A stretch of DNA of 64,000 nt from Planctomycetota bacterium (GTDB lineage: Bacteria; Planctomycetota; Phycisphaerae; UBA1845; UTPLA1): NCBI GenBank assembly GCA_016235815.1, contig JACRIM010000058.1, forward strand, positions 222,041 through 286,040. Reading direction: 5' to 3'. Below are positions 2,706 through 64,000 of the stretch, one piece after another. The notes under the pieces are model-generated. The model ran no database searches, had not been told where the DNA came from, and saw nothing but the letters and a program-made list of their open reading frames with translations. Made by a program: the position numbers and the translations under genes. Each line of letters begins with the position of its first letter. Position 1 is the stretch's first letter.

Positions 2706-2742
2706 CGCCGCCGTCGCCATGCCGGGCTGAGGATCTCCACTC

Positions 2743-3858: not shown

Positions 3859-3901
3859 GCCAGCGCCGGGAGTTGAGCGCTATGATTTCCTGAGGAATGC
3901 C

Positions 3902-17941: not shown

Positions 17942-17960
17942 CACCGGTGCCAAACCGGTG
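17942..17960 (+). promoter_or_regulatory. Perfect hairpin upstream of pilB
   Basis: CACCGG (17942-17947) and CCGGTG (17955-17960) form a perfect 6-base-pair stem around TGCCAAA, 36 bases before the pilB ATG. It could act in the leader of the ATPase operon. It is not followed by a T run, so it is not a plain terminator. The rest of the gap 17774-17996 holds a -10-like TAAAAT at 17818-17823 and nothing else I recognise. Confidence 0.3.
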
Positions 17961-17996
17961 AGAATCAGCCTGGCCGACCGTGGGTGGTGGACGATC

Positions 17997-19745: not shown

Positions 19746-19793
19746 AGACACCAAGGAACGCTCGGCGCAAGGCCGCCGACACCGTGAGACAAT

Positions 19794-20954: not shown

Positions 20955-21006
20955 GCCGCGCGTGTCGTTGACGCCGCCGCCCCCCCACCGACTTGGGAAC
21001 ATCCTT

Positions 21007-46121: not shown

Positions 46122-47338
46122 GCTCCAACCAGCCTGCCCCACAGACGATCCGTTCCATCCAGATCGACTTTTGGCGACGCATCAGTAGTGAGCAAGTGCC
46201 ACGCGTCCAGTCGCCGACCATCCAGGAAGATTGCCGGCGTACCTTCAACGCCCAATGCATGGGCCGACTCAATGTCCGCTGCAATGCGTTTCGTGGCGTC
46301 TTCGCCTTCGAACACGATCGCCCATTTTGCCGAGTCCAATTTGGAGTCTTGAGCAAACTCCTTGTACGGCTGCTCCGCCAGTCTCGCCGCGTTCTCAAAC
46401 ACCAACTGATGATACCGATAGGTACTCTCCCACGAACCGACGCTCCGCGCTGCCTCCGCGGCCCGAGCGGCTTCGCACGCGAACACATGCATCGACTCCG
46501 TTGAATGCGTATTGCACGTACGATCCAATGGGAAATGCCGAAATGCGATCCGCACGGCATCGGGATACAGATTGGTGAGCCGGGCCGCGTATCGGTGAAA
46601 CCCCGCACAGGCCGAACACTCGAAATCGGTGTATGCCACGACGACGTGCGGGGCGTCGGCGCGACCGATGACAAACTCATCGGGTCGTAGTGCGATCTCA
46701 TGGCGGGCGTTCTGCGAGTGCCGCCACAGGATGTAGTCCGCGTTGTTTGTCGCTTTGAGGAGATCCAACTGGAAGCGCCGAGCCGTCACTTGCATTTGGA
46801 ATCCGAAGATAAACGATGCAATTAGAAGCGAAACGCCGGCCGTTCCGCCGATCACGCCCCATGCTCGTGCGGCGCTGGGGTAGGCGGACTGCCCGGCAAC
46901 CGCCGCACAGGTCGGTCGCGCCGCCAAAACACATGCGATGCACAGGATTGCGTTAATTCCATGTACGCCGAGGCACCACGTACACCACACCGGCAGATAC
47001 GCGGCCATGACGAGGGTGTAATAGACGGAGGCGAGGATTCCGACCACGCACAGCAGCATTGGCACACGATGCCAACGCCGTCCTGCGCCATTCGGCAGCC
47101 CGACAAAAGTGAACCATGATCCTAATGAGAGGAAATACAGCAGCCCCACGGCGGCCGATGGCAGCGGCCCGACCTTGGCCCAGCGACTCGCCAGCACATA
47201 ATCACAGTTGATTCGCGCCGTCGGCTTGCAAAGCGATTGGCTAATCCCGTCACCGGAATCGGACGGCACGCTCATCCGCAGGAGCACACCACATGCCAAG
47301 GTCCCCAACAGACACAAGATCAGAAGTACGACGCGCAC
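46109..47338 (-). CDS. Vitamin K epoxide reductase-DsbA fusion (disulfide bond formation)
   Basis: This is a 409-residue protein. The N-terminal VKOR domain (about 1-180, four to five helices) has the loop cysteines Cys37 and Cys45 ('SLCKPTARINCDYV') and the active-site CTWC (119-122). A thioredoxin-fold DsbA-like domain (about 215-400) has active-site CSAC (241-244) in 'AYTDFECSACAGFHRY' and a cis-Pro loop 'VEGTPAIFLDG'. Such fusions both oxidise substrate cysteines and pass electrons to quinone. The start is GTG 47338 with GGAGG 4 bases upstream. It lies 15 bases after the lipoprotein gene at the end of the secretin operon, suggesting it supports folding of envelope proteins made there. Confidence 0.92.
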   Translation of the reverse strand: MRVVLLILCLLGTLACGVLLRMSVPSDSGDGISQSLCKPTARINCDYVLASRWAKVGPLPSAAVGLLYFLSLGSWFTFVGLPNGAGRRWHRVPMLLCVVGILASVYYTLVMAAYLPVWCTWCLGVHGINAILCIACVLAARPTCAAVAGQSAYPSAARAWGVIGGTAGVSLLIASFIFGFQMQVTARRFQLDLLKATNNADYILWRHSQNARHEIALRPDEFVIGRADAPHVVVAYTDFECSACAGFHRYAARLTNLYPDAVRIAFRHFPLDRTCNTHSTESMHVFACEAARAAEAARSVGSWESTYRYHQLVFENAARLAEQPYKEFAQDSKLDSAKWAIVFEGEDATKRIAADIESAHALGVEGTPAIFLDGRRLDAWHLLTTDASPKVDLDGTDRLWGRLVGAQSK

Positions 47339-47353: not shown

Positions 47354-48103
47354 CTACTTGCCGGTCGTCGCCGGCGCTGCCGTAACACTTGCAGGCTTCT
47401 GCCGTGGGGCGCGGGCGCGCGACGTCCTGTTGTCATTCGACAAGGCACCTGTTGCAGGCTTCACCGTTGCGGTCAGCGACCGATAGGGTTCAATACCAAC
47501 GCTTCCGTTCTTCGGCAATTTCAGGACTTGTCGCGATGATGTAATTACTTTGCCGTCTTCGCGAATGTACTTCACGAGAAATGCGACTTGCTTTCCGGAC
47601 AGGTCCAATCCACGGTCCCATTGCAATCGAAGACCGTAACCCCACCCCAGCGCCGTCTGCGCCTTCGCACGATAGACATAGCACTTGTCAGCGGGAAGAT
47701 CCCATTCGTAAACCTGCGTTGCCATCTCTTCGCCAACGGGGTTTATGTCGATGCGATACATCGTGACGACCATTCGACCTGTTCCGAAAACGCCGGCGGA
47801 CTTGCGCGGACCTTCCAGATACACTGAGAATTTCACACCATCCGGCCGATTCGTTCCATCGGATTCAAAACTCAGCCATGGCTCGCTGCTGAAGAACTTG
47901 TTCACGCGCACGATGTTCGGCTCCAACGGCCCTTCGGCCGGCTCCTTGGAATCGAACGGTTTGCTGCGCGACTGAGATACACCGGTCGATGGTGCCGGCT
48001 TCATGCAGCCCGCGGCGATCACCGCGCCGGCAATCATCATGACCGCGACCAGCACTCGCGTGTCTTTTAGTGTTCTTGTCATTCGGCGACTCCAAGCTTC
48101 CAT
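47354..48103 (-). CDS. Lipoprotein encoded directly after the giant secretin
   Basis: This is a 249-residue protein. The start at 48103 has AAAGGA about 8 bases upstream. The signal sequence ends in a lipobox 'VIAAGC' (Cys about 33). The mature part is beta-rich: 'LSFESDGTNRPDGVKFSVYLEGPRKSAGVFGTGRMVVTMYRI' in consecutive strands, then 'LSGKQVAFLVKYIREDGKVI'. The tail is basic, Ala/Pro/Arg rich. I recognise no family. Its position 59 bases after the secretin gene makes a pilotin-like role (lipoprotein that guides secretin to the outer membrane) worth considering, but it lacks visible similarity to PilW/PilF TPR or GspS pilotins. Confidence 0.75.
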   Translation of the reverse strand: MEAWSRRMTRTLKDTRVLVAVMMIAGAVIAAGCMKPAPSTGVSQSRSKPFDSKEPAEGPLEPNIVRVNKFFSSEPWLSFESDGTNRPDGVKFSVYLEGPRKSAGVFGTGRMVVTMYRIDINPVGEEMATQVYEWDLPADKCYVYRAKAQTALGWGYGLRLQWDRGLDLSGKQVAFLVKYIREDGKVITSSRQVLKLPKNGSVGIEPYRSLTATVKPATGALSNDNRTSRARAPRQKPASVTAAPATTGK

Positions 48104-48162: not shown

Positions 48163-51100
48163 TTACGGCATCACGCCGGTCGGCGGCCTCGACGGGTCCG
48201 TCGTTCGCCGTGCGACCACATCATCGCCCGGCGGCACCAGCGGACCATACTTCGGCGCCTGCGGGCCGTACTTCTTTTTCTCGCCTTCTTCCTTTGCCGG
48301 CTCGGCCTTGTGCGGGCCGGGCTGTTCGAAGGCTTCTTCCGGCGGCGTCGGTTCGGTGTCAATCCATTCATCCACCGACTCCGGCTTGACCTGCAGCTTC
48401 TCGAACAGCGGACTCTGCTTTTGCGAGTCCGTAATGATTCCGGATTCGTCTCGCTTATCGATGGAGATTCGCCGTGCATCCTCCACCGTCCGCACCACGT
48501 GCGGCGTCATGGCGATGAGCAACTCTGTTTTGGACTTCGTCCGAGTCGTCGTGCGGAAGAGGATGCCCAGGCCCGGGATGTCTCCAAGCACCGGCACCTT
48601 GCTCTCGCTTTCATTCTCCGCTGTCGTGATGAGACCGCCGATGACAACCGTTTCGCCATCTCGTACCGCGACATTGGTTGACGCCGTGCGGCGATTGATG
48701 ATCGGAGCGAACGAACCCGGCGCGATCTGGACGTTCGAATCCGACACGTTGGAGATTTCAGGCTCCACGAGCAAATACACATAGCCATCCGGATTGATGT
48801 GCGGCTCAACCGTCAGGATCACGCCGACATCCTGATACTGCACGGTCGATGTGATACCACCGCCGAACCCGCTCGAAACGGAACCCTGCAACAAAGGCAC
48901 CGACTGGCCGATGCTGATGTTCGCCTCCTGATTGTCCTGGCACATGATCATGGGTCGCTGGATGACCTCCAGCCGGCTGTCGGCCTGCAAGGCTCGTACG
49001 AGGAAGTTGAAGTCTTCGCCGGTGATGGTGAACGAGAAGCCGCCCAACCCCGAGCCGGCCGCGCCGAGATCAGTGCCGCCCACCACGTCGAAGTGCGAGC
49101 TTTGAAGTATGCCGTTTGGATTCGCCACGGCGGTTTCGCTGAATCGCAGCTCCTGCAAGGCGAATTCAAGGCCCATCTCGAAGCGGTCGTTCAATGACAC
49201 TTCCGCGATGACCACCTGGATCATGACCTGCGGCGGCGGACGATCGAGCTGTTCGACGAGAGTCAGAACCTGCTGCTTGTAGCGGGGGCTGACCGACACA
49301 AGAAGCTGATTCGATTCTGGATGCGGGACGATGGAGACTTCCTGCTCCATCCGACGCTGCGGCGAGACGAAATCCTGCAAGTCGGACAGGCGATTCGTTT
49401 CTGCCTCAAAGTAGCTCGTCAGCGCCGCTTCCACATCTTCAGCGGTCGCGTTGTTCAGTGCGATAACCATGTTCTCGCGATCCTGGATCGACCGTGAATC
49501 AAGCTGGTCGATCACATCGGCGACAACATCGATATCTTCGGGCCAGCCGGCGACGATGATCGCGTTGGTGCGCTCATCCGCCACAAACGTCGACTTCGGG
49601 CGACCAAAGGTACCCTTGGATGTCGGTCCGCCTTGCGATGCAGCCGTCGGTGCTCCGCCGGTGGCCGTCGTGCCGCCTTCGACGCTGATCGAACGGTTCT
49701 GCTGGAACTCCTCCTGCGACTGGCTGCCTTCATCCTGGGCAAACATTTTTTCCAGCTGCTCGACCATCTTGGTTGCGTCCGCATTGCGAAGTAAGAAGAC
49801 CTTGACCAGCACCGACCGCATCTGAATCTCGTCGAGTCGCTTGATGAGTTGTCGGATCAGCTTCAATGAGGAGGGCGGCGCGATCGCAATGATGCTGTTG
49901 GTTCGCTCGTTGTACGTGATCTGCACGTTTTCGCGGATCGTCTTGAGAAACAGTTCCTTGCCTCGCTCGTCCGTCGTGGCGAATGAGAGCACCATCGACG
50001 CCACTTCGCGCGCCTCATCGGAGACTTTGCCGGAGCCGCCGGCGCCGCTGCTACTACTGCTGCGACTGCCGGATGACCCGCTGCTGCTGGAGACCGTCGT
50101 CTCGCCCGTGAGGATCGAGTTGAGCAACTCCGCCATTTTCTTAGCGTCTTCGTTGTTGCATGGGAAGACGCCGATCTCCGCGCCGCCCTTGACCTCTGAC
50201 TGATCGAGGCGTTCGACGAGCTTGACGATGTTTTCCAATTCGCCCGGGGGCGCCGTCACCACGACCGCGTTGGTCCGCTTGTCTTCAATGACGCCGATGC
50301 CCTTGCCGCCGCCGCTCGAACCCGTGCCGCCGGAACCACTGGAGCCTCCGCTCTGGTACAGCTCGTCGAGAATCTTCTTCACCTTTTCGGCGGACGCTTT
50401 TTCCAGCGGTATGACCTTCGCCATCTCCAGGACCGTTGACGGCCGATCCAGGCGCGCAAGCAAATCCTTCACGAGGATATGATCCTCGCGCGACGCATTC
50501 ACCACGAGGCTGTTCGTCGTCGCCTCCACTTCAATGGACACGGCAATATTCGGGACCTTCGACCCCGTGTCTCCGCCGCGAGGCTTGTTGCGCTCCTCGA
50601 AGATCTTTTTGACCGTTTCGCCGACCTTTGCCGCGGAGGCCTCCGTCAGGCGATACACTTCAACCAATTGGCCCGGCGTCCCCGGCGGGACATCCAGCTT
50701 TTTCACGAGTTCAACGGCTGAGTCAATTCCGTCTTTGGTTCCGCCAAGCACGATGCGATTGCTTCGCTCGTCGGCGAAGACCGTCACTCCGAAACCGCCT
50801 TTGCTCTTGGTGGTGCTCGACGCCTCTTCTTCGCGGATTTTCTTGAGCTTTTCGAAGTAATCGAGCACCTGCGCCGCGATTTTCACCGCGTCGCCGTGTT
50901 CGATGATGATGAGCTTGGTAATCGCCACATCCCACGGCGTCGTGACACTGTTCATCCGCTTATAAATCTCGCGGACAAGCTCCATGTTTTCGGGTGCTGC
51001 CGACACCATGATAATGTTGGAACGCTCGTCGACCGTCGTCGTCACCTTCGCGCGGTCCTTTGTTCCCGGGCTGTCCGACGCCACGCCCGGCTTGAACACG

Positions 51101-54100
51101 CCATCTTTGAAGAGTTGATCGATTGTGTCCTTCACGCGTCCCGCGCCGACGTTGGTGCAGACGAAGAATTCGACAATGGCCTGCACCCCGATCTCCTGAT
51201 CGAGCGCCCCGATCTTCTCCATCATCACGTCGTAGTTTTCTCGCGAACCGACAAAGAGCAGCGTGTTGGTGACTTCATCGACCTTGATCGCGACTTTGTC
51301 TTCGGGCCGGGGCTTGCCGTCCACGGTTCGCATTTCGGCGCGCTTCTCAAACAGGCCCGTGAACGCAGGCTCCAGCGTCTTGGCCGAGTTGTGCTTGAGG
51401 CGCACAAGGTAGATGTTCGCCATCGGGTTCAGTTCGAGGCTTTCGATTTTGTCCACAACGGACTTGATGGCCTCGAAGTCGCCCTTGCTTGCCGCGACGA
51501 TGAGTGAATTGCTGCGCTCGTCCGCCACAATGGCCGGCGTTTCGAGTTTCAGGCCTTTCGAGCCTTCCGATTGCTGCTGCTGGCGCTGTTCCCAGAGTTT
51601 CTTGAGCTTTTCGGCGAGATCGGTCGCCGTCGTCTTCTTCAGCGTGATCGTGCGGATGTCCTCAATCAGCGCGGTCGCCGGGATGTCCAGCTTCTTGATG
51701 AGTTCCTTGATTTCTTCCCGGCGCGACTGATTCGCCGAGATGATCAGCGATCGACTTCGCGGATCTCCCTTGATGATGACCGTTTCGTTCTTGCCGGCGT
51801 TTGGTCCCGTGCCCTTCGGCAGGATTTCGGCCCGCGCCTTCATCATGTCGGTGAGCGCCGTCTCCAATCCCGTCGCACTGGCATACTCCAGGCGCACAAG
51901 TTCGAACGGCATGACGTCGGACCCTTTGACATCCAGCCTTGCCACAAGGTCTTCGAGAATCTTCAGCTCTTCCGGTCGCGCGACGATCAGAATCTGATTC
52001 GTCCGTGCATCAGCGGAAACCACCGCCTTGAACACCAAAGCCCCCGCCGGCCCATCAGGAATGCCGCTTTTGTCGCCCTTACCCGGCCGCTGCGTCAGTG
52101 CTTCGCTGTCCGTAAGCAACTTCTTCAGCCGATCCTCAACCTCCGACGATTCGGCGTACTTCAACGCGATCATCTTGTGAACGACTTCGGCCCGCGCCGG
52201 CTCCTTGTCGAACGCGAGCGCGACCTGCTTCATGATCAGGCAGTTTTGCTTGGTGCTGGCGATGATCAGGCTGTTGCTGTCCTTGTCGCCGAAGATGACG
52301 ATAGGCCGATCGAGGTTCACCGTCGCCAGCGGCTCGCCCTTATCGTCGAGCAGACGGAATCGCCGAATGAAGTCCTTCATGGGCGTGTCGCCCGTCGCGG
52401 CTTTTTTCAGCAATTCATTCAGCAGCGTCCCGAGCGTATCCGCCTGCGCCACGCGCAGCGGAATAATCATTACATCCGCCTCGCCGACGGGCTGCTGTTT
52501 GCCTTCCTCAGTCTGCGGTAATTCAGCGTCGAGGCTGCCGACCAGCTTTTCGACGAATTGCAGATCGGTCTCGCCGCCGGTCACAAGGATCGTGTTCGTC
52601 TGCGGGTCGAGTTCGATACCGATCTGTGACGGGTCGGTGATGCCCTTCTGTTTGAGATAAGCGGCGACCATCTTCTTGAGGATTTCGCCTGCTTCCATTA
52701 CGCGGCGGTTCTTCAACTGGAATGACTTGACGTTTTTCTCCGAGCTGGGAGCGGCCTCTTCATTCTTGCGGATCAGCTCCAGCGCCTGCGCCATCTTCTC
52801 TTCCGTGGCCGCGATATACAGACCGTTTGTTCGCGGATCGGCGACGATGTCGACCTTGTCTTCCGGTCGGGGCTGCCGCTCGCCTTTCTTCTCGACTTTC
52901 GAAAAGACATCCGTCAGCGTCTTGGCCAGTTCCTGTGCCCGGGCGTTCTTTAGCGTGACGTATTCGAGCCTTTTGGTCGCCGTGACTTTATCAAGCATCT
53001 CGATGATCGATATTACGACATCCATATCGGCGTCGTTCGCTTCAATGACCACCGTGTCCTGCCCTGCCTCGGTTACGCCGATGGGTGCGCCGCTGAACTT
53101 CTTGTAGAGGGCTTCCTTGGCAGAGTCCGACATTTGCGACGGGTCAATCCCCTGCCCGGCCAATGCCTTCATTCGTTCCAATTGCGCCGCGTCAATCTGC
53201 GGCTCCGCGGGCTGGGATGATGGCGTGCGCGAACGAATCGTCGCGGTCGGCGGCGTCACATCTTTCTTCGGCGGTGCCTGTGCAAGCTGCGTTTGCGCAA
53301 CAGCCGTGTTGAGCACTATCTGCGTCATCAACACGGGCAAGCTCAATCCATAGGCGGTTCGCATCGATGATCGTTCCCTTTCATCTCGGCGGCTCCGCGT
53401 CCAGCCGGCATCCGATCGGGCGCCACGATTTGACGCACCCGTCGTACCCGACTGCGGGCCCTTCTGGATTTGCTCCAGCAACTGTTTTACCTGCTGCGGC
53501 GACATGGATTTTAAGTTGATCACGCGTCGCGTCGTGCCGCCCGTGGGGGCCATCGCCACCAGTTCGTTCACCAATCGCTGGGCTTCCTCATACTTTGCCT
53601 TTGACCCCGACACCAGCAGCGCATTGGCTCGTGTGTCCGCCCCGATCTTCACCATGCTCGGTTTGTAATCTTTCACGAGCAGTTTCTTGTTGTTCTCCGC
53701 GTCATTCAGCTGCGCCTCAATGAGCCGCGCTAATTCCTCGACGCCGCGTCCTGCCGGAACCGGAAGTATCCGCACCGCCCCTGTTCCATCTTCCTTCAAC
53801 TCCAGGTCTAGGCTTTCGATCATCCCTTTGATCTGGCCGAAGTCGCCGGCCGTCGCGCGAACGATGATGCTGTTCGTCGCATCTTCCGCCACGATAACCG
53901 GGGCCTTGTAGGTCGCACCCTTGCTCTTGTCCGTGCGGTTCGGGTCGTTGAACACGCGATTGAGCGTCCCGGCGATGTCCGAGGCGTTGCCGTTCTTCAG
54001 TGCAATACGAGTCGGCACATCGACCGTGCCCTCTTTGCGCTCGACGTCCAGTTCCTTGATCTTCGCAATCGTGTCGTCCACGCCTTCGCGCTTGCCGACC

Positions 54101-57100
54101 ACAATCACGGCGTTCATCGTTTCGACGGCCTTGAGGCGCATGTCGCCGGCCAGAACGGTTTTGTCATCCTTCTTTAATTCCTTGTCAGCCCACCACGGCA
54201 TGAACTTCGGGCCTTCTTCTTCCGTCGATCGCTTGGCGACCTTCAGGTATTCCGTCAGGATCGCAATCATTTCCGAAGCATCGACGTACTTCAGCGGGAC
54301 CATTTCCATGACCATCTTCGCGGCGTTGTCCACGTCGATGTCTTTCACGATGTCGTCGATCAACTCCTTCGTCTTCTCGGAGCAATAGACCAACAGCATG
54401 TTCGCCGAAGGCTCTGCGGTGATCGTGACCTGATTATCCGCGGCCTTGGCCGGCGGCTCGCCACCACGCATCCACGGCGGCGTGTTGCTCTGCTGATTCT
54501 TCAACCCCGCCTTCTTGTCGAAGAACGCTTGCAACGTCTTGGCAACTTCATCCGCAACGGCGTGTTTCAACGCAATCTTGTACATCTGCATTGCGCCGAT
54601 GGCCGGACTCTTCGACACCACGTCGATGACCTGCTCCTTGATCTTCGCATACTCGGCATCCGAGGCGAACACCAGCAGCGTGTTTGTCGGTTCGTGATAC
54701 TCGGCCTTCACACCCTCCTGCCCTTGCGGCGAGCCGTAGAGCTTGTTGATGTTCTCCACGACCGTTTTCGCCGGCACGAGATCGGGCATGGCGACGGTGA
54801 AGACCTTGCGGCCCTTCTCCACGTCAACCTTCTTCATCATTTCTTCGACTTCGCGGATGTATTCCTCGGTGGCGGTCACCACGAGACTGTTCGAGGCCAT
54901 GTCCGCGGCGATGGAGATCGGATACTTGCCCTGCTGATTCGCGATCGTCCGTGACTGAAACGCCTCCGTCAGCGCGCGGGCCATGGCATCGGCCTTGCCG
55001 TTGACCAGCGGGATAAACTTCGTGACCTTGATGTTCGTCTTGGTCACCGATGCCAGGATCGGATCGACGATCGACGCCTTAATCTCCGCCTGCTGCTTAG
55101 GCGTTGCCGTCACAACAACCAGATTCGCATCGGGGTTTGCTGAAACGACCGGCGCGATCACGCCCGTCGTCTTCGGGTCCACATTCTTGTACATCTCGGT
55201 GATGTTCGTTGCGAGTTGCGCTGCCTTGGCCTGGTCCGGCACGTTGTACGTCACCGTTGTCGGCCGCACCGATTCATCCGCCTCCTGATCGACGGCTCTT
55301 AGCACGTCGCCGATCAGCATGAACGTCACCGGGCCGCCCGTGACGATGAGCGAATTGGTCCGCGCATCGGGCACCACGCCGACGAGGTCGAGCTTCACGC
55401 CCGACAGCCCGCCGGTGGCCATCGCCTTGGTCATCATGTCGGTGAGTTTCTGGTTTACATCGACGGCCGACGCATGCTTGAGCGGGAACGACTTGACCTG
55501 CATGCCGCTCGGCTGCGTGTCCATGTCGCTCGCGACCTTCTTGATCTGTTCAAATACCTCGGGTGCGGCGTTGGCGACGTATACAGTGCCGTTGTTCTTG
55601 TTGCCCTTGATGGTCAGCGGCTGACCGCCCTTGCCCTTCTTGCCGGCACCGGTGAAGACTTCCTCTAGTTGCTTCGCTACGGTTTCGGCATCGGCCACTT
55701 TGATACGAATCATCTTTAGGTTTTGCGTGTCGGCAGCCTTGCCTTCGAGCGACTGAATCTGCCTGCCGATCTCTTCCATCTGCGGCGCCGGCGCCTTGAC
55801 GAGGATCGTGCCCGATGCGGCATCGGCGGTGATCACGATGTCCGATTCACGACCGCCGCCGACATAGATGCTCTTCAGCGCGGTCACGATTGAGTTCGCA
55901 TCGCCGGTAACGGGAAACTGCCGGACGCCGGAACCTTCCTGATCGACGTCGAGTTCTTTGATGACTTTTTCGACGCGCTCAAGGTCCTTCGACTGCCCCG
56001 CGAGGATGACGCTGTTCGTCCGCGAATCGGCGTTGACGCTGACGTTTCCGCCTCGACCGCGACCACGACCACCTTCGCCTCCACCACCGCCACCGGCCAC
56101 CTGTCCGGCGACATCTTTCACGATGGTGGCAATGTCGCTGGCGCGGGCGTGTTCAAGGGCGACGCGGCGCATCTCGGGCTTTGTGGTGTTTGTCTCTTTT
56201 TCGAGATCATCGATCAACTTACCAATAAGATCGAGCGTATCCGTCGGCCCCTGTGCAATGACCGTGTTGGTCTGTTCTTCTGCCGTCAGCTTCACTTCAT
56301 CCGCGGATACTGTTGCTGTCGCACCGGCTTGTCCCTGCTGCCCGGCCATCTGGAAAATCTGTTGCTGTGGCTGCCCTTCCTGCGGCTGCGGCTGCCCAGG
56401 CTGGCCAGGTCGTCCGGCGCGGTTTCCACCCCGCGTGCTAGGTTCAAGTCCCAGCACTTCACGCAGGCTCTGCACCACCTGTCCCGCCTCCAGGTTCTGC
56501 AACCGGAACATGCGAATATTCTTATTCGACGGCGGTACCTTCTGATCGATCGTCTTGAGCACGTCGATCACCAGTGGGATATCCTGCGGCGGTGCGACGA
56601 CGAGAATGCTCTTCGTCCGCACGTTCGGGATCGCCTTGATCCGGCTCGGCCCCGCCGGTTGCTGCATTTGCTGTTGCGGTTGACCCGGCTGTCCCGGTTG
56701 CGGCTGCTGACCCGGTTGCAATGGCTGCCCCGGAACCGGCGCCTTTCCCGGCTGCGGCGCGGCCGGCGCCGGCGCCATCGGAATCGCCGCGCCTCGCCCC
56801 TTTTTGCCGACGGCCGCTGCGCCCTGATTGAAAATCTGCTCGAGGAGTTGCGCGGCCTTGTTCACGTCTTCGTACTTGAGCGGGAATTGCCGAATCACAG
56901 GCGGTGCATCGCCTTCGGTTAATTCGTCAAGCAAATCTTCCATTTCTTCGAGGTCATCCTCAGAACCAAGAAAGATCAGCTTTCCGGTGTCCGGATCGAT
57001 AATGACCGTTGGCTCCATCGCAGCGTCCTTGGACTTGTCAGGTCCCTGCGAAGCGGACGTCTCCGGTTGTGCAACATGATTGTGCTGAGCGGTATCCTTT

Positions 57101-60100
57101 TCTGATGCGTCGTCTTTCGGAGTGTCGTAGACCGGGTCATCAAACGACGCGGTAATCAATGTTTCCAACGATGCCACCATGCCACCAGGAAGGGTGCATG
57201 CATTTTGGCGACAGATCGGACACGTCACCGGATCATGCATCGGCTCGGCCGATTGTGCAGGACACAGCGATGCAAGACTAAGGAGCAGGCTCGCGGGCAA
57301 CACGCACGGCGTGATCATCGACCGTGACGGTTGCGTCGTCGGCTCCGGTGGATCATCCGCGTGAATGTCAATCGTGGGGACGAGACCGGCGGTCATATCT
57401 CCGATGACCTTAACCTTGCGACCATCGGCCGACAGATAATTCTGCGAAATAATCTTGGCGGCCAGTGCCGGCGGTATTTTGCAATCGACAATTCGTTTGT
57501 TGTTGGTGATCCTGCCACTCTTGGGCACGTCATACATCGCCACCACATCCATCACCAATTGTTTCTGCGATGGCTTGCAATTCTTCACCAGCAGCGTCTT
57601 CTTGTTCGGTCCTTCGTCAACCTTGATCCCGGCCGATTTGCCTTCGGGATTCACGAGGTCTTCGACGTCGTAGGCGATGTCAAACGCATCCTTGTTCTTC
57701 AACGCGATGGTGAAGAACGGCTGCGCGCCCTCCTCCGGGCCGCCCTTGATTACGCTCGGATCCGCGAAGGCCAATGCAAGGAAACTCTCTACAATCTTCA
57801 GATCGCCCTCGACTTTTACTCCGACAAGCAGCGTGTTTTCATTCGTGTCGGCGTAGATCGTGATCGCCTCCGGCGCGGCCAATTGCGGCGGCGGCGGCGT
57901 GCCCGGGGCGCCGGCTGGCTTGGCACCGCCGGCCTTACCCGAAGGGCTCATCGCCAGCATGGCGCGAAGCTTCTTCTCATCTTCCTCCGCATCCTGCACG
58001 CGATACTTACGGAAGATCGGCTGGTCGTATGGCATGTCGATCTGGTCGAGCAACTGCAGGCACTTGGCTACCTGCTCCTGCGGACCTTCGAGGATGATCG
58101 TGCGGCCGCTCGGGAGAATGGTCATGCCGCCCGATGGTGATGCCGGCGCACCCGGAGCTTTCACCGCGGCGGACGCACCGCCACCACTGCTGGTCAGTGT
58201 CTTGAGAATCTCCGCGAGTTCATTCGCACCGCGGTTTTTGGCCTCCACGATCACGCGGGCCGTCTGCGACTTTTCCTCCATCTCGGTCACCAGTTTGTGA
58301 ATCTGCTCCATCTCTTTCGGAGGAGCCTGCACCAGCAGCGAGTTCGTGATCGGCTCGGCGACGATGCGAACACCGCCTCCCGATCCGCGCGAGGCGCCGG
58401 CAATTTGCGGCTGACCCGGCTGCACGACCGAAGACGGACCACCGCTCGAGGCTCCAACCGCCTGCATCAGAATCGGCGCGACCGACTCGGCCTTGGCGTG
58501 CGTCAATTTGATGACAGTCAGGTCGCCCTTGGTCGGGATATCCAACTGCTTGATGACCGGCTCGACCTTGCGGGTGAACTCCATCGACGCGTAAATCTGA
58601 ACGGCGTCGTTGAACTCGTCCGCGAGAAATGCGGCCTGCGGCGCGCCGGCGGGTTTGCCCGGCTGCTGCGGCGGCGGAGGGAACATCATCTTCAGCGTGT
58701 TGACGATGTCCGTCGCGTTGGCGTGTTGCAGTTTGATCGAGGTAAGTTTCGATTCGCCGATTCCGGTCTGCTCTTCAAGTTGCTTGATGAGCGGCTCGAT
58801 GCGCTCCCATTCGCGATCGCTCGCATACACGATCAGGTAGCCGCTTGCGTCGTCAGGCACGAAGCGCAGCGACGTGCCGCCGACCTGGCCCGGCTGGGGC
58901 TGGCGACCCGGCATCGGGGCCTTGGGCGGCACGATGCCCGGGGCGATCTGCGTGAGGATGTTGGAAAGATTGCTTGGCGTTGCATTCGAGAGCTTGACCA
59001 GGTGTTGCTTTGCCTCGTCGTCGGGCTTGACGTCCAGCTTCGCGATCGTGTCCTTGAGCTTCTGGAATTCCTGCTTCGACGCAGACACCAGCAGCGATGT
59101 GCCCGTTACCGCGGCAATCTTGGTCGGCTGCTGACCCGGCTTGGGTTGCGGAGGGAAGAGCGTCGTAATCGTCGTTGCAATGGCCCCGGCATCGGCATTT
59201 TTCAGGTCCACGATCTCCGTCACGGTGTTTTCATCCGGCTTGTCCCACTCTCGGACGAGCTTCTCCGCCGAGTCGAGGCCTTCCTGCGTGCCGACGAGGA
59301 TGACCGAGTTCGACCCGGGATCGGCGAAACAATCGCGTCGCGCAGCCGCCTTGCGCTCCGGCGTCACATGAACGGTCGGATCGGAGATCAACTCCTGCTG
59401 CTCGCGGGCAAAGATCTGCTTGATGAGCATGGTCATCTGATTCGCGTCGGCGAAATGCAGCTTCACGATGCGCATGTCGAGCGCGGCCGGCCCGGTGCCG
59501 GTGTCCAGTTTCTCGATCATCTGCGAAATTTCATCCAAAGCCCGCTGGGAGGCGATCACGATCAGCTTGTTGTTCTTCACGTCGGGGATGATGTCGATTC
59601 TCTTCGCTGTTTCGGCTTTCGGATCAACGCCCGGCCCGCGCCCCGGCTGCACCGCGCCGCCGGCCGTCGCTGGAAAGACCTGCCTCAGCATGTTTTGAAT
59701 GTCCGTCGCCTTCGCGACCTTCAACTCAAACGTCCGCTGCGGCCGAGAGTCCGGGTCTTGAGGTCCAGACATGCCGGTCAGCTTGCTTACCACTTCGCGG
59801 AATCGATGATGCTCCATGACGATTCCGGTCAACTCGATGACATCGCCCTTGCACTGAGTGCCATAGGTGTCTGAGAAGAGTGGACGGAATTCCTCAATGA
59901 TCTCATAGCAGCTCCATCCCTTCGGCGTGGGCAGGTTCACCATGACGATGTCAAAGTCATCCAGCCTGGCCGAATCCATCTCCTCGAACGACCGAAACAT
60001 CCGCTCCGGCGGAATCTCGCGCATGAGATCGGGCAATCGCTTGATCGTGAGGTAGTTGTCCTGCCGGTGGATCAGGTACTTGTTGACGGGGCGACTCAGC

Positions 60101-60867
60101 AGCAACTCATTTAGTTGATGCAGCGCCTCGTTGTACGTCATCACCCGCGGGCTGCGGAAGGTCATGTTGTCCGTCAGCGGCGGATCGGGCTGATTGAGGA
60201 ACGGCAACCCGCTCATTCTCGCGAAATCCGTGAGCACATCGCTCCACGGCATCGCCTGATAGTCGAAGCGATAGGTCTTCGATTCCGGATTCGGCGGACC
60301 CACTTCAAAACGAATCGTCGTCTGCGTCTCGCCCAAATCAGAGGCCGGTGTCGTGGGAGCTGCGTCGGCCGCGCCCGCAGGCGGTGTCGCGCCGGGCTTG
60401 GCCCCCGGCGTCGGAGTCGCCTGCTTCGGCGCCCCGGCAGGAGGCGGAATCACGGCCGACGGTTTTGGATTCGTCGTCCGCACGGGCATCTCCGGTCCCT
60501 TTTTTTCATTCTTGGTTTGAACGGGTTTTTCTTGCGGTGGCGGCGGCACCGCGCCCGGCTTCGTTGGCGCACCCGGTTTCGTGCCGGGCGTGGGCTTCAC
60601 GCCCGTGCCCTTGCGAGGGTGTTCCTCTGGTTGCGGTTTCGCCGCCTTGCCCTCGGCCTCCATCACCGCGCGCTTCGCGGCCTCGATCTCGTCGTCCGAT
60701 GGCGCCGCGGGCTTCTTCACCTCCGTTGAGGCGGGCTGCGTCGTCGCCGGCGCGGCGGGCTGCGTGGTCTGCGCGACAACCGTCGCTCCACACCAGAATA
60801 AGAGGGTGAGCGCGATCATGAGTCCGTGTATTGTTCGTGTCGTCATATCAGTTCGCCTTGCGGTCAT
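48163..60867 (-). CDS. Giant multi-N-domain secretin (PilQ/GspD-like), about 4,234 residues
   Basis: This is one uninterrupted frame. A signal peptide ends near 'TVVAQ'. A Pro/Ala/Lys-rich linker follows, then an N0-like domain (about residues 195-279; 'YRFDYQAMPWSDVLTDFARMS'). After it come roughly 36-39 N1-like repeats of 75-110 residues, each ending in the pattern 'D.RTN.LIV.A......I..LI..LD'. A single secretin barrel domain (about 3880-4122) contains 'VMIQVVIAEVSLND', 'VGVILTVEPHINPDGYV', 'NVAVRDGETVVIGGLI' and 'VPVLGDIPGLGILFR'. The ATG at 60867 has GGAGG 8 bases upstream; 60909 and 60846 are alternatives. Usual secretins have 2-4 N domains. Internal signal-peptide-like segments occur at nt 57318 and 53364. 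It lies 19 bases after the PilO-PilP gene. Confidence 0.88.
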   Translation of the reverse strand: MTARRTDMTTRTIHGLMIALTLLFWCGATVVAQTTQPAAPATTQPASTEVKKPAAPSDDEIEAAKRAVMEAEGKAAKPQPEEHPRKGTGVKPTPGTKPGAPTKPGAVPPPPQEKPVQTKNEKKGPEMPVRTTNPKPSAVIPPPAGAPKQATPTPGAKPGATPPAGAADAAPTTPASDLGETQTTIRFEVGPPNPESKTYRFDYQAMPWSDVLTDFARMSGLPFLNQPDPPLTDNMTFRSPRVMTYNEALHQLNELLLSRPVNKYLIHRQDNYLTIKRLPDLMREIPPERMFRSFEEMDSARLDDFDIVMVNLPTPKGWSCYEIIEEFRPLFSDTYGTQCKGDVIELTGIVMEHHRFREVVSKLTGMSGPQDPDSRPQRTFELKVAKATDIQNMLRQVFPATAGGAVQPGRGPGVDPKAETAKRIDIIPDVKNNKLIVIASQRALDEISQMIEKLDTGTGPAALDMRIVKLHFADANQMTMLIKQIFAREQQELISDPTVHVTPERKAAARRDCFADPGSNSVILVGTQEGLDSAEKLVREWDKPDENTVTEIVDLKNADAGAIATTITTLFPPQPKPGQQPTKIAAVTGTSLLVSASKQEFQKLKDTIAKLDVKPDDEAKQHLVKLSNATPSNLSNILTQIAPGIVPPKAPMPGRQPQPGQVGGTSLRFVPDDASGYLIVYASDREWERIEPLIKQLEEQTGIGESKLTSIKLQHANATDIVNTLKMMFPPPPQQPGKPAGAPQAAFLADEFNDAVQIYASMEFTRKVEPVIKQLDIPTKGDLTVIKLTHAKAESVAPILMQAVGASSGGPSSVVQPGQPQIAGASRGSGGGVRIVAEPITNSLLVQAPPKEMEQIHKLVTEMEEKSQTARVIVEAKNRGANELAEILKTLTSSGGGASAAVKAPGAPASPSGGMTILPSGRTIILEGPQEQVAKCLQLLDQIDMPYDQPIFRKYRVQDAEEDEKKLRAMLAMSPSGKAGGAKPAGAPGTPPPPQLAAPEAITIYADTNENTLLVGVKVEGDLKIVESFLALAFADPSVIKGGPEEGAQPFFTIALKNKDAFDIAYDVEDLVNPEGKSAGIKVDEGPNKKTLLVKNCKPSQKQLVMDVVAMYDVPKSGRITNNKRIVDCKIPPALAAKIISQNYLSADGRKVKVIGDMTAGLVPTIDIHADDPPEPTTQPSRSMITPCVLPASLLLSLASLCPAQSAEPMHDPVTCPICRQNACTLPGGMVASLETLITASFDDPVYDTPKDDASEKDTAQHNHVAQPETSASQGPDKSKDAAMEPTVIIDPDTGKLIFLGSEDDLEEMEDLLDELTEGDAPPVIRQFPLKYEDVNKAAQLLEQIFNQGAAAVGKKGRGAAIPMAPAPAAPQPGKAPVPGQPLQPGQQPQPGQPGQPQQQMQQPAGPSRIKAIPNVRTKSILVVAPPQDIPLVIDVLKTIDQKVPPSNKNIRMFRLQNLEAGQVVQSLREVLGLEPSTRGGNRAGRPGQPGQPQPQEGQPQQQIFQMAGQQGQAGATATVSADEVKLTAEEQTNTVIAQGPTDTLDLIGKLIDDLEKETNTTKPEMRRVALEHARASDIATIVKDVAGQVAGGGGGGEGGRGRGRGGNVSVNADSRTNSVILAGQSKDLERVEKVIKELDVDQEGSGVRQFPVTGDANSIVTALKSIYVGGGRESDIVITADAASGTILVKAPAPQMEEIGRQIQSLEGKAADTQNLKMIRIKVADAETVAKQLEEVFTGAGKKGKGGQPLTIKGNKNNGTVYVANAAPEVFEQIKKVASDMDTQPSGMQVKSFPLKHASAVDVNQKLTDMMTKAMATGGLSGVKLDLVGVVPDARTNSLIVTGGPVTFMLIGDVLRAVDQEADESVRPTTVTYNVPDQAKAAQLATNITEMYKNVDPKTTGVIAPVVSANPDANLVVVTATPKQQAEIKASIVDPILASVTKTNIKVTKFIPLVNGKADAMARALTEAFQSRTIANQQGKYPISIAADMASNSLVVTATEEYIREVEEMMKKVDVEKGRKVFTVAMPDLVPAKTVVENINKLYGSPQGQEGVKAEYHEPTNTLLVFASDAEYAKIKEQVIDVVSKSPAIGAMQMYKIALKHAVADEVAKTLQAFFDKKAGLKNQQSNTPPWMRGGEPPAKAADNQVTITAEPSANMLLVYCSEKTKELIDDIVKDIDVDNAAKMVMEMVPLKYVDASEMIAILTEYLKVAKRSTEEEGPKFMPWWADKELKKDDKTVLAGDMRLKAVETMNAVIVVGKREGVDDTIAKIKELDVERKEGTVDVPTRIALKNGNASDIAGTLNRVFNDPNRTDKSKGATYKAPVIVAEDATNSIIVRATAGDFGQIKGMIESLDLELKEDGTGAVRILPVPAGRGVEELARLIEAQLNDAENNKKLLVKDYKPSMVKIGADTRANALLVSGSKAKYEEAQRLVNELVAMAPTGGTTRRVINLKSMSPQQVKQLLEQIQKGPQSGTTGASNRGARSDAGWTRSRRDERERSSMRTAYGLSLPVLMTQIVLNTAVAQTQLAQAPPKKDVTPPTATIRSRTPSSQPAEPQIDAAQLERMKALAGQGIDPSQMSDSAKEALYKKFSGAPIGVTEAGQDTVVIEANDADMDVVISIIEMLDKVTATKRLEYVTLKNARAQELAKTLTDVFSKVEKKGERQPRPEDKVDIVADPRTNGLYIAATEEKMAQALELIRKNEEAAPSSEKNVKSFQLKNRRVMEAGEILKKMVAAYLKQKGITDPSQIGIELDPQTNTILVTGGETDLQFVEKLVGSLDAELPQTEEGKQQPVGEADVMIIPLRVAQADTLGTLLNELLKKAATGDTPMKDFIRRFRLLDDKGEPLATVNLDRPIVIFGDKDSNSLIIASTKQNCLIMKQVALAFDKEPARAEVVHKMIALKYAESSEVEDRLKKLLTDSEALTQRPGKGDKSGIPDGPAGALVFKAVVSADARTNQILIVARPEELKILEDLVARLDVKGSDVMPFELVRLEYASATGLETALTDMMKARAEILPKGTGPNAGKNETVIIKGDPRSRSLIISANQSRREEIKELIKKLDIPATALIEDIRTITLKKTTATDLAEKLKKLWEQRQQQQSEGSKGLKLETPAIVADERSNSLIVAASKGDFEAIKSVVDKIESLELNPMANIYLVRLKHNSAKTLEPAFTGLFEKRAEMRTVDGKPRPEDKVAIKVDEVTNTLLFVGSRENYDVMMEKIGALDQEIGVQAIVEFFVCTNVGAGRVKDTIDQLFKDGVFKPGVASDSPGTKDRAKVTTTVDERSNIIMVSAAPENMELVREIYKRMNSVTTPWDVAITKLIIIEHGDAVKIAAQVLDYFEKLKKIREEEASSTTKSKGGFGVTVFADERSNRIVLGGTKDGIDSAVELVKKLDVPPGTPGQLVEVYRLTEASAAKVGETVKKIFEERNKPRGGDTGSKVPNIAVSIEVEATTNSLVVNASREDHILVKDLLARLDRPSTVLEMAKVIPLEKASAEKVKKILDELYQSGGSSGSGGTGSSGGGKGIGVIEDKRTNAVVVTAPPGELENIVKLVERLDQSEVKGGAEIGVFPCNNEDAKKMAELLNSILTGETTVSSSSGSSGSRSSSSSGAGGSGKVSDEAREVASMVLSFATTDERGKELFLKTIRENVQITYNERTNSIIAIAPPSSLKLIRQLIKRLDEIQMRSVLVKVFLLRNADATKMVEQLEKMFAQDEGSQSQEEFQQNRSISVEGGTTATGGAPTAASQGGPTSKGTFGRPKSTFVADERTNAIIVAGWPEDIDVVADVIDQLDSRSIQDRENMVIALNNATAEDVEAALTSYFEAETNRLSDLQDFVSPQRRMEQEVSIVPHPESNQLLVSVSPRYKQQVLTLVEQLDRPPPQVMIQVVIAEVSLNDRFEMGLEFALQELRFSETAVANPNGILQSSHFDVVGGTDLGAAGSGLGGFSFTITGEDFNFLVRALQADSRLEVIQRPMIMCQDNQEANISIGQSVPLLQGSVSSGFGGGITSTVQYQDVGVILTVEPHINPDGYVYLLVEPEISNVSDSNVQIAPGSFAPIINRRTASTNVAVRDGETVVIGGLITTAENESESKVPVLGDIPGLGILFRTTTRTKSKTELLIAMTPHVVRTVEDARRISIDKRDESGIITDSQKQSPLFEKLQVKPESVDEWIDTEPTPPEEAFEQPGPHKAEPAKEEGEKKKYGPQAPKYGPLVPPGDDVVARRTTDPSRPPTGVMP
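48500..49230 (-). other. Secretin barrel domain coding segment
   Basis: This is the only secretin (PF00263-type) domain in the giant frame. It holds the barrel strands, a Gly/Ser-rich lip region ('GSVSSGFGGGITSTVQYQDVG') and the terminal 'TELLIAMTPHVV'. About 110 residues of Pro/Glu/Lys-rich tail follow it, possibly an S-domain-like or lipoprotein-binding tail. Confidence 0.85.
53365..57318 (-). repeat. Middle block of N1-like repeats, beginning with a signal-peptide-like segment
   Basis: The block begins at an in-frame ATG (57318) followed by 'MITPCVLPASLLLSLASLCP' and 'AQSAEP', which looks like a secretory signal. A short Cys motif, 'CPICRQNAC', and about 14 N1-like repeats follow. Before the next block the reading becomes Arg/Ser-rich ('RSDAGWTRSRRDERERSS'), like translated spacer DNA. 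It contains no N0 or barrel domain. Confidence 0.7.
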
Positions 60868-60886
60868 GTCACGCGCCTCCGCGGCC

Positions 60887-62416
60887 CTATTGTCTTGTCC
60901 ACGCGTCAATTGCCGTGGCCAGTTCCTGTTCTTCCTGAGCTTCCAACTTCACGCGATCCGTGAACTTCTTACCGAGGGGGTACAGATAGAAGTTTCCGCT
61001 CGGCATCTTCACCACGCCTCCCAGCGGATGCACAGCCAGTAAGACGCCGCCATCCACCGTTGCCGGCTCGCCCGCACGAATCACTTTTCTCGTGCCGCTG
61101 GCGTTGGCGATCATTTCCTGCGTCCCCTCATAAGTAACGAGGCCCGTGACCACCGCCCCCGCGTCGGCCGGCGGATCGTTCACGGGCTTGGACGCCTCGG
61201 CGATCGATTCAACCGGCTCCACGGGCACGGTATACGTCTGCTTACTCGCGGACGGGGAAAAGGTCGCAGGTGCCGCCTTCTTACCGGATGCATAGGTGGC
61301 TGTAATTTGCAGATTCTTGCACGGATAGGCCTCCAAATCCTCCTTCGTGGCACCCTTCACGCGAATGGTGGGCTTGGTCTTGGCCGCGCCTTCCTTTGGC
61401 GTCACGGTGATTTCGATGTCCACCGCGTCCTTGTCCTTATTGTCCACCGCGAGGTCGACGACTTCGGGCGGCGGCGCGGGACTATGCACGGCCACCAAAT
61501 AAGTGAAGTCCTTCTTCGTGTTGAAGTCGAACTGCTCAGGCCCGAACGCCTTGCCGTCGGCATAGGCGCCCTTGATGACGACGACATCGCCCTTCTTCGT
61601 GTACGTTCGTTGCGTCTTGCTCGGCAGTGTGTCGACCACTTCCTCGTTCAGTTTTCCATCCCAGAGAAAGGCGACACGCAACGCGACCGTCTTCCAATCC
61701 TGATTGTCTACGATGATTGCATTCGTCGGCGGAGGTACATAGGGACGGAAGATCAGTCGATCCGCGAGCAAGGGTAGATCGTCCGCCGATTTCGGATTCG
61801 GCCGCGCCGGACCCATCGCCGGATCGACCTCCATCGGCAACGTTGCCGCATCCGCCGCTTCCGGGATCGCCTTCTTGTCAATCTTTGGCGGCACCGGCGT
61901 CTCGATGGTCAGTTCCAATTTCACTTCGTCGCGGCCGCGCCCCTTCTGCAGAATGGGCGACCACGCGATCTTCGAGATCTGGCACAGGCTTGGGGTGCGG
62001 TAGAGGTCAAGCACGCACGCCAGCATTTCGCTAAATCGGCCTTCAAGCGTAAAGCGATAGCCCACGGCCTCGATGCCAGACTTGCTTCCGATCTTCATCC
62101 CGCCCGCCGGCGCGACCGACGTCACCGTGATCGTGCGATTCTTGGCAATGGCTTTGAGGTCCTGGCCGAATCGATTGAGCGCCTCGGCGGAGTCATACGA
62201 GTAAGTCCGCGCGATCAGGTCGCGCCATCGCCGCGCCAAATTTTCGCGCGAGCGAATCACACCCTTGAGGCGATTCGTCTCGGTGGTGAATTTGGCGATT
62301 TTGTCGTTTGCCTCGGCGATCGGGTTTATAAACAAGAACTTCACGCCGCTGTAAACGACAAAGACGCCAACGATGGCGCCGACCAGAATGAGCAGTTTCT
62401 TTTCGCGGGGGTTCAT
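60887..62416 (-). CDS. PilO-PilP fusion (GspM/GspC-like) inner-membrane alignment protein
   Basis: This is a 509-residue protein. A short cytoplasmic start and one membrane helix (about 7-30; 'LLILVGAIVGVFVVYSGVKFLF') are followed by a coiled coil (about 36-70) and a PilO-type ferredoxin-like domain ('GYRFTLEGRFSEMLACVLDLYRTPSLCQISKIAW' as adjoining stretches). A long middle region (about 210-420) may contain Ig-like folds. The C-terminal domain (about 425-495; 'VVTGLVTYEGTQEMIANASG' to 'VHPLGGVVKMPSGNFYLYPLG') looks like the PilP/GspC homology region that binds secretin N0. The ATG overlaps the PilM-PilN stop by 4 bases. Fusion of O and P would fix their stoichiometry at 1:1. Confidence 0.8.
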   Translation of the reverse strand: MNPREKKLLILVGAIVGVFVVYSGVKFLFINPIAEANDKIAKFTTETNRLKGVIRSRENLARRWRDLIARTYSYDSAEALNRFGQDLKAIAKNRTITVTSVAPAGGMKIGSKSGIEAVGYRFTLEGRFSEMLACVLDLYRTPSLCQISKIAWSPILQKGRGRDEVKLELTIETPVPPKIDKKAIPEAADAATLPMEVDPAMGPARPNPKSADDLPLLADRLIFRPYVPPPTNAIIVDNQDWKTVALRVAFLWDGKLNEEVVDTLPSKTQRTYTKKGDVVVIKGAYADGKAFGPEQFDFNTKKDFTYLVAVHSPAPPPEVVDLAVDNKDKDAVDIEITVTPKEGAAKTKPTIRVKGATKEDLEAYPCKNLQITATYASGKKAAPATFSPSASKQTYTVPVEPVESIAEASKPVNDPPADAGAVVTGLVTYEGTQEMIANASGTRKVIRAGEPATVDGGVLLAVHPLGGVVKMPSGNFYLYPLGKKFTDRVKLEAQEEQELATAIDAWTRQ

Positions 62417-64000
62417 CGTGATACCCCCTTCGCCGTGGTCGGCGACGCCTTACCGTCGGTCGGCGGCGTCTGCGTTTCAGGCTTCGGCTCTGTTTTTACT
62501 TCGGCCGGCTTTGGTTCCTCCGGCTTCGCATTGGCCGGCTTCACATCGACTGGCTTCGCCTCTGGCAGTTTCACGGGATTCGGCGTCTTTTCAGTGGGTG
62601 GTTCCGTCGTGCCTGCGCTCTTTGCCGTATCGTTCGCGATTGCGCGAGGTTGCTCATCCTTCCTGGGCGGCGGCACGATTGCGTCGATGTTGGTGTCGTA
62701 GCGATATCCGTCCTGCGAATTGAAATTCGGCGTCTCCTTCCCCGGGACGACGTTCGCAAAGCCCGACTCCCGCAACTTGGTCGTGAGGCCGTTTACCGCA
62801 CCCAACGATGCCGTCCGAAAGCGAATCCGCATCAAGGCATCAAGCGAGTTCGTCCTGGGATTCGCCGAAATCTCAAAGTCGGCCCGCGACACGTAGGCTT
62901 CCGTCTCCGCGGGGAACACCTCAGTAAGCATCGCGAGAACGGTCGGCCAGTGCTGCTCCGACTCGATCCATTTCTCCAGCGTCTCCACCTGCTCCTTGAA
63001 CTTGACGACCGGCTCTTCCTGCTTTTTCAGTTTCGCCCGTTCGAGGTCCAGTTTCTTCGCCTGGTCCTGCAACGGCTTCACAAAGCGATAGTGAAACGTC
63101 ACGCCGGAGCCGAGGAAGAGCAGCGCCGTCGCCACCGCCAGCGGCAACTTGCGCATTTGCACGTCGCGCTTGCTCACCGGCTTCTTCGGGTGCAGGAAGT
63201 CAATCGTCTCGAGGCCCTTTCGAGCGTGGCCGATGGCCAACCCAATCGCCGCGTTGAAACCTCGCAGCTCCTTGGCCCGCGATGCCGCGAGTTGCATTGC
63301 GCGATCCGGCGTGAAGAGTGCCGCCGTTGTCGCATAGCGGGCGCCGAGCGCCTGCGTGAGGTGTGTCTCCAGACCCGTCGCGCCGCAGACCACGATGTGA
63401 TCCAGGCTCACGGCCGGATCCGTTGCCCGATAGGCCTCCACCGAGCGGACGATCTCGACCATCAGATCGCTGACGGCCTGACGCGTCACATCGTCCTCCT
63501 CGCGTTCGACCGCCTTGTTCGTCGCAATGCGGCTGTCCGTGACGGACTCGCCCACGCCGTGCTCGGGCAGCGCGAGCAGCGCTGCGCGGCTGAAGACGAG
63601 TCGCCCGTTGCGTACGATGTCGATCTCGGTGAACTGCGGACCGATCTCGACGATGAGCAGCGATTTCTCCGCAAGCTCCTGCGCCCGGGATGTCACCGCG
63701 ATGAGGTTCGCGAACGGTCGCAGCCCGACGCGCTCCACGCTCAATCCGGCGTTCTCAACAACTTGCTGATAGAAGTTCAACTGCTCCCGCCGAACCGCGG
63801 CGACCAGAACGCTCACCGGCGCCTTCGGATCGAAGACGCCGCTCACGGCGAAATCGAGCGCCGCCTCTTCCGCGGAGAACGGCAACTCCTTGGTAATTTG
63901 AAACTGGACAATCGCCGGCAACTCATCCGCCGGCATCGGAGGAAGTTCGAGCGTGTTAAGGACGACGTGATCGCGCGGTATGGAAATCATCGCCTGACTT
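62413..64000 (-). CDS. PilM-PilN fusion (GspL-like), N-terminus beyond the window
   Basis: At least 525 residues are visible and the frame continues through the right edge. The actin-like PilM part includes 'HVVLNTLELPPMPADELPAIVQFQITKELPF' (as adjoining stretches), 'LLIVEIGPQFTEIDIVRNG' and 'IVVCGATGLETHLTQALG'. Then 'ETIDFLHPKKP', equivalent to the 'INLLP' tail by which PilN binds PilM, leads into a membrane helix (about 290-310), a coiled coil and a PilN-type periplasmic domain, ending in a Lys/Pro/Glu-rich tail. T2SS GspL has the same order in one chain. The ATG at 63990 is internal to the family fold, so the true start lies upstream. It is the first visible gene of the secretin operon. 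Confidence 0.88.
   Translation of the reverse strand, partial: SQAMISIPRDHVVLNTLELPPMPADELPAIVQFQITKELPFSAEEAALDFAVSGVFDPKAPVSVLVAAVRREQLNFYQQVVENAGLSVERVGLRPFANLIAVTSRAQELAEKSLLIVEIGPQFTEIDIVRNGRLVFSRAALLALPEHGVGESVTDSRIATNKAVEREEDDVTRQAVSDLMVEIVRSVEAYRATDPAVSLDHIVVCGATGLETHLTQALGARYATTAALFTPDRAMQLAASRAKELRGFNAAIGLAIGHARKGLETIDFLHPKKPVSKRDVQMRKLPLAVATALLFLGSGVTFHYRFVKPLQDQAKKLDLERAKLKKQEEPVVKFKEQVETLEKWIESEQHWPTVLAMLTEVFPAETEAYVSRADFEISANPRTNSLDALMRIRFRTASLGAVNGLTTKLRESGFANVVPGKETPNFNSQDGYRYDTNIDAIVPPPRKDEQPRAIANDTAKSAGTTEPPTEKTPNPVKLPEAKPVDVKPANAKPEEPKPAEVKTEPKPETQTPPTDGKASPTTAKGVSR

Follow-up and report, generated by a model that had tools for sequence, protein, structure and literature searches.

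What is encoded by one frame of 4,234 codons in a planctomycete of the class Phycisphaerae, with about 38 secretin N1-like units where GspD has N1-N2-N3, and what could such a protein build between the two membranes? The question is raised by a locus on contig JACRIM010000058.1 (assembly GCA_016235815.1), analysed here within a stretch of 64,000 nucleotides, the window. The closest known protein is GspD (PDB 5wq7 and 5zdh; PF00263, PF03958 and PF21305), with which the giant secretin shares an N0 domain in first position, N domains of β-α-β-β-α topology, a GspD-like barrel, a T2SS-type operon and a downstream lipoprotein. In contrast to GspD, it has its multiplied N1 units, two loop interruptions with signal-like segments and, in sister families, versions made of two or three polypeptides. 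Thermus thermophilus PilQ also has extra N domains in its periplasmic ring stack, with six stacked N rings that span most of its wide periplasm; however, it belongs to a T4P system, its N domains are six rather than about 38, and no splitting is described in that work (PMC5745081). These six rings are the longest experimentally described N-domain stack that was found, and a search of the freely accessible journal literature, preprints excluded, returned no published description of giant or multi-N1 secretins.

Reading frame and domain organization

Residue numbers of the giant secretin are all counted from a TTG at 60909, which, taken as the start, gives an ORF (60909..48163, minus strand) of 4,248 aa with no internal stop over all 4,248 codons; the frame of about 4,234 residues from the ATG at 60867, on which the earlier note was built, is borne out. 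The GC3 value is about 0.7-0.85 along nearly the whole frame, decreasing to 0.59-0.69 around residues 1100-1700. Pfam Secretin_N (PF03958) matches 34 stretches (1,025 bits, E=0) and Secretin (PF00263) matches once (E=3.2e-50) so that, with the barrel and the upstream N domains both present, the protein is a member of the secretin superfamily. A profile of the N1 unit, obtained iteratively from the window protein and its relatives, detected 37 units, of which 36 reach E<1e-3; for units 9 and 23 the match covers the second half only. One extra degenerate unit (residues ~1064-1128) was missed by the profile. The layout is one N0, about 38 N1-like units and one barrel (table 1), and chance is excluded as the origin of the repeat pattern. 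The 36-39 units marked off by eye in the earlier note agree with this count; the profile searches also located the N0 domain at the start and the barrel at the end, and found N domains across most of the repeat region. Since about 38 N1 units stand where the three N1-like domains of GspD are expected between N0 and barrel, the protein is best described as a GspD variant rather than a standard member. Several units carry long Gly/Pro/Gln/Ser-rich α1-β2 loops (e.g. residues ~1360-1425 in unit 10 and 3600-3640 in unit 35) that, if facing the lumen, could make a disordered plug or filter.

Table 1. Position in the window of the segments of the giant secretin and of the other genes considered in the text.
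Feature	Coordinates	Strand	Evidence or remark
Giant GspD-type secretin gene	48163..60867	(-)	4,234 aa from ATG at 60867; about 456 kDa
N-terminal signal peptide MTTRTIHGLMIALTLLFWCGATVVA, then Q	60772..60846	(-)	hydrophobicity scan
N0 module (GspD-type N0 and first N1-like part), residues 208-372	59794..60288	(-)	profile search
Block P1, N1 units 1-8, residues 398-1042	57784..59718	(-)	unit profile
Degenerate N1 unit, residues 1064-1128	57526..57720	(-)	half-unit scoring
Possible β1-α1 half of unit broken at junction 1	57433..57501	(-)	weak; score negative in window genome
Junction 1 (J12), hydrophobic motif PCVLPASLLxSLxxL..xG, then Q	57256..57309	(-)	conserved
CPxCxxxxC after junction 1	57196-57222		several family members
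β2-β3-α2 half of unit broken at junction 1	56920..57009	(-)	HMM positions 24-61 only
Block P2, units 9-22, residues 1290-2450	53560..57042	(-)	unit profile; AlphaFold block and PDB match
β1-α1 half of unit broken at junction 2	53461..53538	(-)	p=0.0005 vs shuffles
Arg-rich stretch RGARSDAGWTRSRRDERERSS before junction 2	53365..53427	(-)	matches the Arg-rich tails that end P2 in the split families
Junction 2 (J23), signal-peptide-like GLSLPVLMTQIVLNTAVA, then Q	53296..53349	(-)	
β2-β3-α2 half of unit broken at junction 2	52987..53058	(-)	unit profile, half-unit scoring
Block P3, units 24-37, residues 2654-3892	49234..52950	(-)	unit profile
Secretin barrel PF00263, residues 3973-4140	48490..48993	(-)	Pfam; TIGR02517; PDB 5wq7
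PilM/GspL-like protein	62413..63990	(-)	PF11104, E=2.8e-20
509 aa membrane protein, GspM/PilN-O-like	60887..62416	(-)	position and N-terminal TM; no family match
Lipoprotein gene, IAAGC lipobox	47354..48103	(-)	immediately 3' of secretin; candidate pilotin
VKOR-DsbA fusion (disulfide formation)	46109-47338	(-)	two genes 3' of secretin
Three consecutive T2SSE ATPase genes	17958-22764	(+)	MshEN domains in two; the third PilT-like by length
Peptidase S46, full length	9043-11115	(-)	PF10459, 661 bits

Relation to GspD and genomic context

A profile of the N0 region, made from eight orthologues, long and short, retrieved the N0-N1 structures of GspD from the PDB (best E=3.5e-13), and PF21305, the GspD N0 model, matched five of the eight aligned orthologues, with no match for the window's own sequence taken alone. 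At the other end of the chain, the C-terminal 599 aa reached 339.5 bits with TIGR02517 (GspD), for which the cut-off is 351.35, the top score among all secretin models, and GspD 5wq7 ranked first in the PDB for the barrel region (E=8.7e-78).

The order of the genes on the same strand, namely GspF, a GspH/G-like pseudopilin, an unmatched ORF, GspJ (a weak match), GspK, the PilM/GspL-like protein, the 509 aa TM protein, the giant secretin and a 249 aa lipoprotein, points to a T2SS-like operon. Neither GspE nor GspC was found within it, and several GspE-like ATPases are encoded at other sites of the window genome; the T2SSE ATPase trio in the window, at a distance of about 25 kb from the secretin gene, forms a cluster of its own, for a pilus or for secretion. 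A lipoprotein-like ORF comes next after the secretin in the relatives examined, and this position makes its product a candidate pilotin. The lipoprotein family is without a name, and a PWLSFD..G...PEGIK-like stretch is common to many of the relatives (downstream genes in L056-L093). The VKOR-DsbA fusion encoded nearby and the CPxCxxxxC motif after junction 1 make a disulfide or a metal site there possible.

Fold and spacing of the N1 units

In chains above 3,000 aa, neighbouring unit profiles are separated by a median of 12 residues (IQR 11-12, 958 junctions; 93% within 8-25 residues), most of each gap being made up by the first strand, which is absent from the unit profile. AlphaFold models of residues 1970-2460 (mean pLDDT 70, pTM 0.25) and 3337-4150 (mean pLDDT 66, pTM 0.35) consist of β-α-β-β-α beads. 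The closest solved chains are the GspD/PilQ/InvG secretins, with GspD 5zdh for the mid-chain model (Z 11.5, 190 residues, rmsd 6.7) and 9k8v for the C-terminal block (Z 13.1, 241 residues, rmsd 7.5). Structure prediction of repeat blocks, which the earlier note had proposed as a check, gave the secretin N-domain fold for every modelled unit. This predicted fold can be taken as secure, with low confidence in the relative placement of the units: the models are of monomers, their pTM values are low and the inter-unit geometry was not taken as evidence of stacking.

Distribution in Phycisphaerae

In f1, the family of the window genome, the secretin is a single frame of 4,261-5,207 aa in 15 of 17 genomes, finished single-contig assemblies included, and in the remaining two it ends at contig ends. 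The earlier note had named frameshifts or stop codons as the outcome that would undo its reading, and the signal-peptide-like segments inside the frame could indeed suggest separate genes fused by sequencing errors or by annotation; however, because nearly all f1 genomes share the same open frame, an assembly artefact is already refuted, with a residual probability close to nil. Elsewhere in the class, families f10, f14, f16, f17, f18, f22, f24 and f26 also have the secretin as a single chain, 2,381-6,169 aa long and with 20-61 units, so that the giant multi-N1 secretin is a class-wide architecture, which the earlier note had missed, and not unique to the window genome. The largest systems seen are one on two proteins with 46 and 14 unit matches (genome G021 of f6, locus L073) and one whose single chain, 6,016 aa or longer, has 61 unit matches (genome G079 of f18, locus L095). 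By contrast, the f19 orthologue has 685-704 aa and three N1-like profile matches only, in spite of sharing with the giant protein the N0 module and, in the tree, the barrel lineage. When 294 planctomycete genomes were sampled across the phylum with a strict threshold that leaves weak homologues uncounted, every frame above 4,000 aa fell within Phycisphaerae, and matches elsewhere measured 509-1,250 aa.

Identity between the units of one chain is only 29%, yet across the family each unit is conserved in its own right and the order is kept, with 35-36 of 36 steps colinear in the two closest chains compared and 31-33 in more distant ones. Recent tandem duplication was considered as their source and ruled out by the within-chain identity of about 29% together with colinearity between genera.

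Interrupted units and split genes

The most surprising part of the system is an N1 unit that is interrupted where sister families divide the gene. Two long breaks, of 215 and 124 residues, which had escaped the earlier note, separate units of the window chain. At the second one, the preceding sequence corresponds to β1-α1 of an N1 unit and behind the break only the second half of the unit profile finds a match, from which it follows that the segment is an insertion in the α1-β2 loop of one N1 unit. The first break resembles the second with weaker scores (in f2, p=0.22 and 0.10 for the ends of P1, p=0.0125 and 0.031 for the starts of P2), and probably also interrupts an N1 unit. In f14, which lies outside the order, the chain has a comparable interruption, so that the insertion at the junction may predate the gene splits.

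In f2 the secretin is encoded by three genes (1,290, 1,254 and 1,605 aa in genome G017), and in f5, f6 and f8 by two (2,601-4,010 and 1,435-1,908 aa). The gene breaks of all these families fall in the same α1-β2 loop as the insertions of the window chain. The P2 C-termini tested in f2, f5, f6 and f8 all contain β1-α1 (p=0.0005, the floor of the test), usually with an Arg-rich tail behind it; where a partial first unit was detected in a barrel protein, that protein begins with the second half of an N1 unit. The barrel proteins of f2 and f8 have mostly ordinary signal peptides, those of f5 and f6 a short hydrophobic N-terminus. In f2, f5 and f8 the N0 profile matched the upstream protein and never rose above a marginal score in the barrel protein, in a survey of the upstream proteins other than the incomplete one of f6 and some incomplete ones of f5. 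In the tree the single chain is widespread, and one split followed by re-fusion fits as well as two splits. The earlier description of the protein as single-chain was correct for the window insofar as the frame is continuous and open, but in f2, f5, f6 and f8 the homologous systems consist of two or three polypeptides, and signal-peptide-like segments stay near both cut points of the window chain itself.

At junction 2, all 15 of the f1 chains have a hydrophobic stretch and then A-x-A, A-x-G or G-x-A before an invariant Q (Q2539, after AVA, in the window; Q1219 at junction 1). The conservation of the hydrophobic core is not above that of other linkers, and a core of no special conservation is the usual outcome of signal peptide evolution. 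As judged by per-protein shuffles, the likeness of f1 junction 2 to signal peptides is modest (p 0.005-0.35); since in addition the sequences are related, processing by signal peptidase is here treated as a hypothesis. Junction 1 was considered as a plain signal peptide and rejected: PCVLPxSL is a distinct motif of only moderate hydrophobicity that also occurs in f8, and may at most be called signal-like. A bacterial polyprotein that is cut at an internal signal sequence is the fbcH cytochrome b/c1 precursor of Bradyrhizobium. However, in fbcH the part before the cut ends in the membrane, whereas in the giant secretin that part is periplasmic.

A proposed modular tube and its alternatives

On these bases, the window protein would be a GspD-type secretin in the outer membrane, part of a T2SS-like machine, with N1 multiplied to about 38 copies. 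We infer that N0 docks onto the inner-membrane platform, with the barrel in the outer membrane, and that the N1 units stack with one ring per unit, each of 12-15 subunits as in known secretins, the rings together giving a long modular periplasmic tube. At most three segments of chain would make up this tube, P1 bearing N0, P2, and P3 bearing the barrel, and they would meet within one N1 unit to which the upstream segment contributes β1-α1 and the downstream one β2-β3-α2. In f1 the segments lie in one frame, with signal-peptide-like sequences at the same points, where signal peptidase may cut; in the sister families the same segments are supplied by separate genes. Stacked rings appear to be the likeliest arrangement of the N1 units because of the near-constant unit spacing and because the sister families cut the chain between an N0 and a barrel that are both kept. 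As to the complete proposal, namely a modular tube of stacked rings from up to three segments with split-unit joints and possible signal-peptidase cuts, the arguments for and against seem to us evenly poised. With a height of 2.5-3 nm per ring, a rigid stack of 38 rings is estimated to be about 100 nm long, far beyond an ordinary periplasm. The specific version in which a tube of this length and about 38 rings is assembled from three segments, derived from a cut polyprotein or, in the relatives, from separate genes, with N domains of two polypeptides at the joints, is unlikely.

The earlier note had taken the wide planctomycete periplasm as the reason for the length of the protein, an explanation that is unsupported as stated. 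In Planctopirus the periplasm is variable and at times greatly enlarged, but the envelope complexes are located where both membranes are close (PMC5394234). Moreover, the window genome encodes at least two further, ordinary secretins (677 and 681 aa), each with about one N1 unit, which argue against a uniformly wide periplasm. Both the short secretins of the same cell and the close-membrane sites of the complexes would also suit units arranged as beads on a string, forming an elastic or flexible tether or binding other envelope components, with rings made by the last few N domains only. The lack of confident inter-unit geometry in the models and the variation of the unit number between 20 and 61 are in line with such an arrangement. 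Nevertheless, it leans to the unlikely side, given the short, near-constant inter-unit spacing, the conserved order and identity of the units and, in particular, the split families, which would sever the tether between N0 and barrel and yet keep both ends. With N0 and barrel on different polypeptides, covalent continuity from one to the other is unnecessary, and this favours stacked rings over a tether.

A different doubt bears on the cleavage step only and is compatible with ring stacking: the chain may never be cut, the junction segments being relics, or in-plane hydrophobic helices within long loops, and the single chain itself forming the rings. Start codons and ribosome sites are not conserved at either junction, many members of the class have no internal signal-like segment, and a lone hydrophobic segment within a chain that has already been exported would be a non-standard substrate for signal peptidase. 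On the other hand, A/G-x-A/G before Q is kept in all 15 f1 members despite the ordinary conservation of the core, as signal peptides evolve, and it is in the same loop that the sister families have their gene breaks. An uncut chain is a serious possibility, with a probability that falls a little short of even. The same segments could also mark internal translation starts that yield three proteins from one long frame, since in the window genome an ATG precedes both of them, each of which then resembles a normal signal peptide; but no conserved start codon or Shine-Dalgarno site exists at either junction across the 15 family members and the frame is open through both, so that this route is highly improbable.

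Concluding remarks

Secretins of 20-61 units across a whole class raise the question of the maximum reach of a trans-envelope machine, as well as that of the form of the envelope in these mostly uncultured planctomycetes and of whether secretin length tracks periplasm width. Cleavage at the internal signal-like sites, if it takes place, would make the protein a periplasmic polyprotein, of a kind unusual in bacteria. Finally, the split N unit is a concrete candidate mechanism by which the segments of a periplasmic tube may be joined.
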